DNA of 40,645 nucleotides. Origin: Bacteroidales bacterium (GTDB lineage: Bacteria; Bacteroidota; Bacteroidia; Bacteroidales; UBA7960). The position numbers were made by a program, and so were the translations under genes. Where the stretch lies: NCBI GenBank assembly GCA_007120085.1, contig SKOK01000030.1, forward strand, positions 1 through 40,645, given 5' to 3'. Below, one piece after another: positions 1-30,837 of this stretch. The notes beneath the pieces are model-generated. The model made no database searches. It was not told the DNA's origin and was given only the letters and a program-made list of their open reading frames with translations. Position 1 is the first letter of the stretch. The number at the start of each line of letters is the position of its first letter.

Positions 1-254
1 AAAAACCAGTCAGCTGCAATGGTTTTTTTTGAGAAGCGTTTGAGCAGTTCGTTCACCTCCAGGCTGCGGGCGATTTGATACATGTCTTTGAAAGGATGTT
101 CCAACTGGTCGGCCTCTGTTTGCTGAAGGGAGGCAAGCAGGCCATGCACGCTATTGAACCCGGGGTGTTCATTTTTTTGAAAACACACGACGATGGTGTT
201 TCCCAGGTGGGGAACGTTTCTTATGGCGGCTGCTATGGATTGGATGTCGGGCAT
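1..254 (-). CDS. 5' part of an unrecognised protein (truncated by window edge)
   Basis: The ORF track misses this gene because it runs off the left edge. On the minus strand the frame from the ATG at 254 is open to base 3 and gives 84 residues starting MPDIQSIAAAIRNVPHLGN, with mixed, protein-like composition. An in-frame TAA lies four codons upstream, so this ATG is the first possible start. No signal peptide or membrane segment is visible, so the product is probably cytoplasmic. I do not recognise the family. The plus-strand ORF 75-356 listed over the same bases ends inside a tandem repeat (NCLIVNCLIV) and is its shadow. The gene is transcribed away from the insertion sequence next to it. 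Confidence 0.6.
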   Translation of the reverse strand, partial: MPDIQSIAAAIRNVPHLGNTIVVCFQKNEHPGFNSVHGLLASLQQTEADQLEHPFKDMYQIARSLEVNELLKRFSKKTIAADWF

Positions 255-320
255 GTGGGGGCCGGTTTAATATGGTGGTATTTGTGTAGGTTTTTTGTTT
301 GTCTGTGGCTTGTGTTTATG

Positions 321-389
321 TTTAATTGTTTAATTGTTAATTGTTTAATTGTTTAATTGTTAATTGTTTAATTGTTTAATTGTTTAATT
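321..389 (+). repeat. Left AATTGTTT tandem array
   Basis: Eight-base units TTTAATTG are mixed with seven-base units TTAATTG, about nine units in all, and end directly at the IS terminus. Read outward from the IS the units are CAATTAAA, the same as the outward reading of the array on the other side. The two arrays are therefore inverted relative to each other and are not the two halves of one interrupted array. Confidence 0.9.
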
Positions 390-493
390 GTTGAGCCCAC
401 TCCTAAAAGTCGAGCCCGTTATTTTTACTAAATTTGATTAATTATATATTTTGCACTAATTTCATTTTAATCATTAAATATTTATAAGATATA

Positions 494-525
494 TTTGTAT
501 ATTTCAAATTAAGTTATTATATTTG
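494..525 (+). promoter_or_regulatory. Transposase promoter (Bacteroidetes type)
   Basis: TTTG at 494-497 is followed after 20 bp by TATATTTG at 518-525, matching the Bacteroidetes -33/-7 consensus (TTTG, TAnnTTTG). A second TATATTTG at 490-497 overlaps the -33 element. The predicted start falls about 20 bases before the transposase ATG at 551. Confidence 0.6.
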
Positions 526-550
526 TACTGTTAATCAAACAGTTGAAGTC

Positions 551-2221
551 ATGTTCAAAAAAACTATTCCCGATAAGCAGACTGATCTTTTCAGCAGTGT
601 TGCCACCAATCTGGCAGGGAAAGCCAAAAAGCTTTATGATGATCAGAAAGCCTGGCACAACCTGTTTCGTACGCAAATTCTGCAACGGATTGACGAAACA
701 CCTTACCAGGTTTTGTACAGCAACAGAATGGGTGCGCCCAATGCATCGGTTTCATTGCTTATTAGTATGATGGTCATCAAAGAGGCTTATGGCTGGAGCG
801 ATGAGCAACTCTTTGAGCAGTGCCGGTTCAATTTATTGGTTCGCAGTGCATTAGGCTTGGTAAACATGACTGATGAGGTGCCGGGTGAATCCACTTATTA
901 TCTGTTAAGAAAGCGCGTTCAGGAACACTTCAGGCGCACCGGACAGGATCTTATCCACGAGACCTTTTCTACGGTTACCAGTGGGCAAATCAAAGACTTC
1001 ATGGTCAATGGTCAGAGTATTCGCATGGACAGTAAGCTGATCGGCAGCAACATCGCCTGGTATTCACGTTATGAGATTGTGCATAGCAGCCTTTGCCTGT
1101 TTTACAAAACCCTAGACAAGAAAGCACTTTCCTTGTTTAACCGCCGGGCAAGACTTCAACTGGAAGAACTTTGTAAGGAAGAAGCTGAAAAAACCGTTTA
1201 TCGATCAAACAGGACTGAAATAAAATCACGTCTGCTACGCATGGGCGAACTGATTGTCAGAATGTTGAAACACCTGAAAAAGCGACAGGATACAGAAGAA
1301 TACAAGTTATTGCAACGTGTATTTGACGAAAACTTTGTTGTTGTTGACAAACTGGAAATCGAGATGCTTGAAAGCCAGCAGATTACCTCAGGAAGTGTCC
1401 AGTCGCCTCATGATCCTGATGCAGCCTACCGCAACAAAGGTGACCAAAAGATCAAAGGCTACAGCGTCAATGTCACCGAAACCAATTCTGAAGACTCCCT
1501 TAACCTGATTACCAATGCCAATGTTGATAAAGCCAATGTATCCGATGTTTCTTTTGTCAAGCCAGCCATTGAAGCCACCAGGGTGGTTACCGGGCAGGCA
1601 GTTGAAAAGGTTTATGCCGATGGTGCCTATCAAAGCCCGGATAATGATGCGTTTTGCGATGGAATTGACATGGTGTATACCGGCATGCAGGGTCCACCTT
1701 CTCGCTACGAATTGGACATGACAGATCAGGGGCTGATGGTAACAGACATTGATACGGGCGAAACAGTACTTGCCTCCAAGGCAAAAAGAACCAAAAGAAG
1801 CAAAGAAGACCGTTATTATATACGCAATTCGCAGGGCAAATTGGTATACTTTGGTCAGGCAGCGATCAGGGCATCCCGCCTAAGACAAGAGATGCGACAA
1901 CGACCGCAGGAGGAACTCCGCAAGCGAAACAATGTGGAGGCAACCATTTTCCATCTTGCCTTCCCATTAAGAAACAACAAAACCAAATACCGGGGCCTGT
2001 TCAAACAACAAGCATGGGCAAATTGCAGGTGCTTGTGGATAAACCTGGTCAGAATTATGAAGTTCGTGCAAAAAATATGTCAAAGAGCGTTTCAATCACT
2101 GCTTAAACCAGCCAATTTGAGCGTGTCTGTTGCATATCATATGCTTGTAAAGCTCATATGTCTCAAAAAACAACCGGTTTTCGCAAGTATAATTTTTTTG
2201 TTCGTTTTAATCAATGTATAA
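551..2221 (+). CDS. IS1182-family-like DDE transposase
   Basis: The product is 556 residues, the usual length for the family, and catalyses cut-and-paste movement of the surrounding IS. The N-terminal third resembles the DUF772-type domain of IS1182/IS5-group transposases. The likely DDE residues are D160 (in RMDSKLIGSN), D357 (in YADGAYQSPDN) and E463 (in RNNVEATIF). The segment SPHDPDAAYRNKGDQKIKGY before the second Asp is typical of the group. The C-terminal tail is basic and then hydrophobic. There is no frameshift or internal stop. The gene lies between matching terminal repeats and has its own promoter. Family is inferred from motif layout, not from a search. Confidence 0.88.
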   Translation: MFKKTIPDKQTDLFSSVATNLAGKAKKLYDDQKAWHNLFRTQILQRIDETPYQVLYSNRMGAPNASVSLLISMMVIKEAYGWSDEQLFEQCRFNLLVRSALGLVNMTDEVPGESTYYLLRKRVQEHFRRTGQDLIHETFSTVTSGQIKDFMVNGQSIRMDSKLIGSNIAWYSRYEIVHSSLCLFYKTLDKKALSLFNRRARLQLEELCKEEAEKTVYRSNRTEIKSRLLRMGELIVRMLKHLKKRQDTEEYKLLQRVFDENFVVVDKLEIEMLESQQITSGSVQSPHDPDAAYRNKGDQKIKGYSVNVTETNSEDSLNLITNANVDKANVSDVSFVKPAIEATRVVTGQAVEKVYADGAYQSPDNDAFCDGIDMVYTGMQGPPSRYELDMTDQGLMVTDIDTGETVLASKAKRTKRSKEDRYYIRNSQGKLVYFGQAAIRASRLRQEMRQRPQEELRKRNNVEATIFHLAFPLRNNKTKYRGLFKQQAWANCRCLWINLVRIMKFVQKICQRAFQSLLKPANLSVSVAYHMLVKLICLKKQPVFASIIFLFVLINV

Positions 2222-2258
2222 CCGTTAATCAAATTCCACTTTTTGGAGTGGGCTCAAC

Positions 2259-2377
2259 AATTAAACAATTAAACAATTCAACAATTCAACAATTAAACAA
2301 TTAAACAATTAAACAATTAAACAATTCAACAATTAAACGATTCAACAATTAAACAATTAAACAATTCAACAATTACA
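2259..2377 (-). repeat. Right AAACAATT tandem array
   Basis: About fourteen units of CAATTAAA and CAATTCAA run from the IS right end to within about 12 bp of the alanine racemase stop codon. The first 20 bases outward from the IS are identical to the outward reading of the left array. After that the right array mixes in CAATTCAA units that the left lacks, and is nearly twice as long, so the two arms have evolved separately. Confidence 0.9.
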
Positions 2378-2388
2378 ACAATATTAAC

Positions 2389-3540
2389 TCATTGAACGAT
2401 AACCCTCGGAATATCCTGTGGTAATCGCGTGAGCAGTTGATAATTAAGCTGCTCGCTCATCTCACAGAAAGAGGAAATGCTAATACTCAGGCGTTTTTGC
2501 TTGCCAATGATCACCACTTCGTCGCCGCGTTCAACATTGGGGATGTCAGTGACATTCACCGTCATGGTGTTCATGGTCACCGTGCCGATCACGGAAACCC
2601 TGCGGCCACGGATCAGCACCCGGCCCGTATTGCTCAACGCCCTGCTGAAGCCATTGGCATAACCCACTGGAATGATGGCGATCTTCATTCTTTTGTTGGC
2701 TAAAAACGAACTGCCATATCCAATGAAATTCCCTGGCTCGACCGTTTTAACCACCATTACCTTTGATTTCCACGACAGCAACCTTTTGAGCGGGTTCGTA
2801 TCTTTTGAGTCTTTCCGGAAACGAAACATATGTGTTTCGGGACTGGGCCAGAAACCATACTGTGAAATGCCAAAGCGCACCATGTCCATAATGGTGTTAG
2901 GGTAGGTGAGGGCTGCCGCTGAACAGGCTGTATGGCGAAGCGCGGGCTGCAGATCGTGCCGGGTAAAATACCGGTTAAACTGCCTGAACTTGCTGATCTG
3001 GTTTTTGATGCGCAGGTAATTTGCAAGACTTTCTGCACCAGCATAATGCGTACATAAACCCTGGAAAATATAATGCTCCTGTTCCTGTTTTAAGTAATCT
3101 ATCAGATCCCTGATATTTTCATAATCAAAACCGGTACGGTTGAAACCAGTCTCTGCTTCAATATGTATCCGGGCTTTCTTTCCCATTAATTTTGCAGTTG
3201 CGACTGCCTGCTCCAGGCGGCACCAGTCAAAAACAAAAAACTCTATGTCGTTTTCTATGGCCCATTCCATCTCCTCATCATCCAGCAAGCCCATGATCAT
3301 GATCCGGCTTCCGTTTTTGATCACCTTATGTGCATCCAGGGCTTCCTTAGCCGAAAACACCGAAAAGTGCCTGATTCCGCTTTCCTCAGCCATCGGGATG
3401 ATGTTCTCAACACCATGGCCGTAGGCATTGCCCTTGATCACGGATGAAAAAATGGCATCCTTCCCAATGATCTTTTTTAGATACCGGATGTTGTTTTTAT
3501 AGGCTTTTTTACTTATTTCAATATAGGATGTATGAAACAT
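2389..3540 (-). CDS. alr: Alanine racemase (PLP-dependent)
   Basis: The enzyme interconverts L- and D-alanine, supplying D-Ala for peptidoglycan. At 383 residues it has the normal two-domain length. The PLP lysine is K36 in SSVIKGNAYGHG, the barrel has the arginine of TGFNRTGF (R135), R222 follows in DMVRFGISQYG, and the catalytic tyrosine from the other subunit is Y275 in IGYGSSF. Two positions differ from the usual pattern: HTACSAA where HxANSAA is common, and TMNTM where CMDQ-like Asp is expected (N324). The start is ATG at 3540, two bases after the M20 hydrolase stop, so it is the second gene of that operon. The IS lies just downstream. An uncommon racemase specificity is possible, but alanine is the default. 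Confidence 0.9.
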   Translation of the reverse strand: MFHTSYIEISKKAYKNNIRYLKKIIGKDAIFSSVIKGNAYGHGVENIIPMAEESGIRHFSVFSAKEALDAHKVIKNGSRIMIMGLLDDEEMEWAIENDIEFFVFDWCRLEQAVATAKLMGKKARIHIEAETGFNRTGFDYENIRDLIDYLKQEQEHYIFQGLCTHYAGAESLANYLRIKNQISKFRQFNRYFTRHDLQPALRHTACSAAALTYPNTIMDMVRFGISQYGFWPSPETHMFRFRKDSKDTNPLKRLLSWKSKVMVVKTVEPGNFIGYGSSFLANKRMKIAIIPVGYANGFSRALSNTGRVLIRGRRVSVIGTVTMNTMTVNVTDIPNVERGDEVVIIGKQKRLSISISSFCEMSEQLNYQLLTRLPQDIPRVIVQ

Positions 3541-18949: not shown

Positions 18950-19025
18950 GGGATAAGCCCCGTCAAAACCTGATTCTGTGAACAATAATATAAACACCTG
19001 TCAACAATATTTTAAACAGTAAAAA

Positions 19026-30523: not shown

Positions 30524-30555
30524 CAAATGTAAAACACTTTTTTGATATATTCCAA
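30524..30555 (-). promoter_or_regulatory. Promoter of the ABC-permease-GntR-GIN operon
   Basis: On the minus strand TTG (30555-30553) is followed after 21 bp by TACATTTG (30531-30524), matching the Bacteroidetes consensus. The leader to the ATG at 30484 is about 35 bases and contains the operator. Confidence 0.65.
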
Positions 30556-30837
30556 ATATTTTTGATATTTTTTTTAAATATTTTTCAATAATTTTCTTAT
30601 ATAGTTGATTTTGTGATATTTAACCTTAGGCATTTTCAGACAGAAATGAGCTGATTAAAAGCTTTTATTTTGCTTGTCTTCAAATTATTTGCTCCAGGGT
30701 TCCATTTTACGTTTACTGAAAAACCAGTAAATACATAACCTACATTATTTACAAAAGCAAACAATTTGAGTTTTTACAAGCATTCGCCCTTTAACATTTT
30801 TTAATTAAGAAATTAATCTATAAGTCTTCAAATATTT

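Follow-up and report, generated by a model that had tools for sequence, protein, structure and literature searches.

How does an insertion sequence (IS) come to lie exactly between two arrays of an 8-bp unit that run in opposite directions? The question is raised by the left end of the window analysed here, which is an entire contig of 40,645 bp from a Bacteroidales MAG. A left tandem array (319..392, minus strand) consists of 9.5 copies, as counted by TRF, of the unit AATTGTTT, which reads CAATTAAA on the minus strand. Some of its units are 7 bp long and it carries a 23-bp higher-order repeat. A right tandem array (2256..2382, plus strand) holds 15.8 copies (TRF) of the unit AACAATTA/C (AACAATTM). 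The two arrays abut both ends of the IS in opposite orientation, far beyond what chance would produce, as the initial annotation of this locus had described. The 20 inner bases that it gave as identical on both sides extend to a perfect inversion over the innermost 23 flank bases, and the arms, put there at 69 and about 119 bp, measure 74 and 127 bp. We suggest that the left and right flanks stem from two array loci that were joined at the element, either by recombination in the IS or the arrays or by a mis-join, a reading to which we give a probability of roughly 0.55. Elsewhere in the window, two other short tandem repeats occur at 18976-19018 (22-bp unit, two copies) and 30554-30603 (A/T-rich unit of 11/23 bp, two to three copies), and no IS was noted near either of them.

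The element itself has an unremarkable build. It spans 1,863 bp (393..2255, plus strand), and its ends were set by the target duplications of related copies. The left terminal inverted repeat (393..413, plus strand) is GAGCCCACTCCTAAAAGTCGA and matches the right one (2235..2255, read on the minus strand as GAGCCCACTCCAAAAAGTGGA) at 19 of 21 positions. A single open reading frame (551..2221, plus strand) encodes an intact transposase of 556 aa with a Pfam DUF772 domain (E-value 8.6e-12, 45.3 bits against a cut-off of 23.1). Among NCBIfam models, the transposase matches that of the IS1182 family best (3.7e-37), in a nearly full-length alignment and at 128 bits against a curated cut-off of 270. 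The family layout of about 1.8-2 kb, terminal inverted repeats and one transposase frame is present. We take the element for an ordinary IS1182-like IS of the DDE type, and the sequence comparisons suggest either a divergent member of this family or a sister group.

The exact ends matter for how the insertion is read. The tips are GAGCCCACTCC...GGAGTGGGCTC, i.e. GAG...CTC, because the 6-7-bp duplications of 22 relatives abut exactly there. The tip GTTGAG proposed previously placed the boundary 3 bp too far outward, and the single AATT then taken for a target duplication is not real, since the IS ends at GAG...CTC. With these ends the window copy has no target duplication and is flanked by ATTGTT on the left and AACAAT on the right. 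Excision of the IS in silico yields ...TTAATTGTT/AACAATTAA... at the junction. The proposed resemblance between the IS tip and a repeat unit holds for two bases (GA) beyond the flank and goes no further.

Related copies show how such elements usually insert. IS and MITE copies were gathered from Bacteroidota genomes by end motif and transposase, their flanks were read, and 39 were well paired. An exact direct duplication of 6-7 bp abuts GAG/CTC in 22 of these 39, against 4.5% expected when flanks of the two sides are mispaired. The pattern A-A-n-n-T-T, or a close variant of it (AATTTT, AATATT, AAGATT, AAAGTT, AACTTT), describes most of the 6-bp duplications. MITEs with GAG(T/C)CCACTCCGAAAAGT ends and lengths of about 65-290 bp (L053-L081, L141-L181) are widespread in Bacteroidota, carry similar AAnnTT-like duplications of 6-7 bp and are apparently non-autonomous relatives of the window IS. 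Three copies lie inside tandem arrays, namely in an GGAATGAT array (L128, AATGAT duplication), a TTCAAAG array (L056, AAAGTT duplication) and an CGAGCGTT array (L148, AGCGTT duplication). The array direction is unchanged across the insertion in all three cases, unlike at the window locus, where no array continues in the same direction. The closest IS relatives, 84-88% identical to the window copy, sit in unique DNA on their readable sides (AACATAT in L033; ATTCTTCATT to the right of the copy in the related MAG G1147), and many other family copies are in unique DNA as well. We found no IS copies in viral contigs. Searches of plasmids returned distant IS1182-type matches only, and none from Bacteroidota among the matches listed.

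Arrays of the window unit also exist apart from the element. About 17 other loci in the same genome (L035-L051) carry CAATTNAA octamer arrays without the IS. These are intergenic, range from 2 to 27 units and often lie beside short-unit arrays of the AACCAGT, AAATTAG and GGTTGGA types. No rule was found for the orientation of arrays relative to genes, and both orientations occur between co-directional genes. These observations bear on the proposal of the initial annotation that array units extend outward from the ends of the IS and the element would make minisatellites. The arrays do begin exactly at the IS ends, which speaks for this proposal. However, arrays are not found only or mainly at element ends, where a minisatellite-generating element would be expected to have them, and they also occur in same-genus genomes that lack this IS, such as the roughly 12 units of AACAAATC in a related species (G404). 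Other family copies lie within arrays whose units are quite different. The annotation had itself held that IS copies in unique DNA without arrays would rule out growth from the ends, and both the relatives in unique DNA and the IS-free arrays now speak against it. As a general mechanism, array growth from the IS ends is refuted by the occurrence of IS without arrays and of arrays without IS, and we consider it highly improbable for the window.

The gene order changes at the element as well. The names alr and ltaE used here rest on sequence motifs and background knowledge rather than on a family search, and we take these genes to encode an alanine racemase-like protein and an L-threonine aldolase, respectively. 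All 18 same-genus loci extending beyond the 3' end of alr have ltaE as the directly following gene. In the window, alr (2389..3540, minus strand) is succeeded by the IS between its two arrays and then by an unrelated gene fragment, and the break in gene order coincides exactly with the element. The fragment, gene X (3..254, minus strand), comprises the N-terminal 84 aa of a protein cut off by the contig start. In 3 of 20 same-genus genomes, ORFs of about 1000 aa share 33-36% identity with it at their N-terminus, and these distant relatives do not lie beside alr in the loci that were read. Relatives have no IS at the spot between alr and ltaE, and their spacer differs; in the G404 locus (L083) the AACAAATC array occupies this same spot with its different unit. 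The ltaE gene was not found in the window's MAG, which is 88% complete, by the query that readily finds it in all 18 relatives, and the absence may mean only a missing contig, as the MAG is fragmented. With the nearest species at about 84% identity in alr, the altered gene order could also be ancient and have nothing to do with the IS.

A joining of two array loci would bring these features together. The IS would insert at short A/T-rich sites of the form A-A-n-n-T-T, 6 or sometimes 7 bp long, and would duplicate them. Intergenic short-unit arrays are rich in such sites, and the CAATTNAA array would offer AACAATT or, on the other strand, AATTGTT. With one site per unit on either strand, the IS could enter an array in either orientation and always in the same unit phase. 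Two parent insertions, each presumably flanked by an AACAATT duplication, could then have been joined by recombination between the two IS copies, through a deletion or an inversion that possibly removed ltaE. Alternatively, an assembler might have merged halves of the two copies. Either way, the joining of two loci would account for the inverted arrays, the symmetric junction phase, the missing duplication and the broken gene order together. The assembly contains a single copy of the IS and the bin has no further contig that ends in or carries an IS end, which makes the second copy hypothetical.

If the junction were an assembly error only, two IS copies in two arrays would have been collapsed and the wrong flanks joined. 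This is a sub-case of the joined-loci reading, and we regard it as unlikely to be the full explanation. The window is a complete contig in which the left array is preceded by only 318 bp of other sequence, contigs of the MAG stop within or close to octamer arrays in several cases (e.g. C75, C95 and C268), and in G1147 contigs break off within copies of this IS, all of which would suit an error at this place. Against it, the missing IS end on any other contig of the bin has to be set, as well as the tendency of assemblers to break at collapsed repeats rather than to bridge them.

A different account would have the IS insert at the centre of two converging, cruciform-capable arrays, without a duplication and with a possible loss of bases. 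The initial annotation had formulated it as insertion at the tip of a pre-existing palindrome, and the underlying mechanism is already published for the IS1182 family. The staphylococcal members IS1272 and TnSha1 insert into inverted repeats without a duplication, partially delete the hairpin and occur in both orientations (PMC5678879, PMC4923244). Both resemble the window copy in being IS1182-type elements with terminal inverted repeats, inverted flanks and no target duplication. The flanks of Bacteroidota copies without a duplication (n = 11) are slightly more symmetric than those of mispaired controls (6.5 against 5.2 of 12 positions, p ~0.008). One good parallel is a 56-bp MITE (L065:1022-1077), which has no target duplication and exactly occupies the loop of a 10-bp stem whose two strands, TAGTTTTTAG and CTAAAAACTA, flank it symmetrically. 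Another MITE is located 17 bp further on at this locus. The perfect inversion of the window flanks over 23 bases would likewise suit a palindromic target.

Bacteria do not stably maintain long near-perfect palindromes, which counts against such a target. Ordinary duplications prevail in the relatives, and the broken gene order would require a separate cause. Two pattern searches for an empty palindromic array of the window unit, run over 21 same-genus genomes, found none. Among 219 retrieved loci, no palindromic or converging array of the unit was detected, and none of the 17 other array loci of the genome is a close inverted pair. A loose search allowing two mismatches matched one single-direction array on contig C194 of the same genome, and the remaining matches look like short chance matches. 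The arms had been described as inverted copies, and this is correct for their orientation. If they were halves of one palindrome, however, the variants from unit to unit should mirror each other, and they do not. Aligned from the tip, the arms score 63 in register and also 63 when slipped by four units. Arrays on contigs C202 and C75 give 67 with the right arm, above its 63 with the left arm. Mirror-copied palindrome arms are rejected by these slipped and cross-array alignments. As no empty array was found in the 21 genomes, the arms do not mirror each other and the gene order is interrupted at the element, two joined loci are likelier than a palindromic target, which we nevertheless regard as a serious if less probable alternative given the published precedent and the L065 parallel.

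Both processes might also operate in the same lineage. The Bacteroidota branch of the IS1182 family would then have two outcomes, namely insertion with an AAnnTT duplication of 6-7 bp and duplication-free insertion in the middle of inverted repeats, long converging octamer arrays among them. We put this forward tentatively and hold it to be somewhat doubtful. If true, the insertion would stabilise long converging octamer arrays. The comparison with IS1272 has two further sides. IS1272 targets short hairpins, with target structures of 21-38 bp (PMC5678879, PMC4923244), whereas the window flanks are two arrays of 8-bp units with lengths of 74 and 127 bp. Most Bacteroidota relatives of the window IS make direct duplications of 6-7 bp, and IS1272 makes none.

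The symmetric picture of an IS within arrays can thus arise from a site preference and the joining of two loci, with no need for a new mechanism of making repeats. A perhaps more useful by-product is the AAnnTT target rule of 6-7 bp for IS1182-like elements and MITEs of Bacteroidota. This duplication rule may be unreported for the group, judging from a literature search that was not exhaustive. The duplication-free minority makes the published idea of hairpin targeting testable outside staphylococci.

The arrays also have counterparts among known repeats. Intergenic direct repeats of heptamers such as TAACTGA are found in Beggiatoaceae, Cyanobacteria and some Bacteroidetes (PMC4679880). The window genome is similar in having many intergenic, head-to-tail arrays of short units across one genome, but its CAATTNAA units are 8 bp long with variants and are not tied to the IS. 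BrickBuilt of Porphyromonas gingivalis is a minisatellite within a MITE, with a 23-bp repeat that is part of the element (PMC4596501). It shares with the window the association of tandem repeats with a mobile element in Bacteroidales. Unlike the internal repeat of BrickBuilt, the window arrays lie outside the IS ends and are present without the IS. The octamer array is not confined to the chromosome of this lineage, and 19 IMG/VR viral contigs (L201-L219) carry a CAATTMAA array of at least three units.
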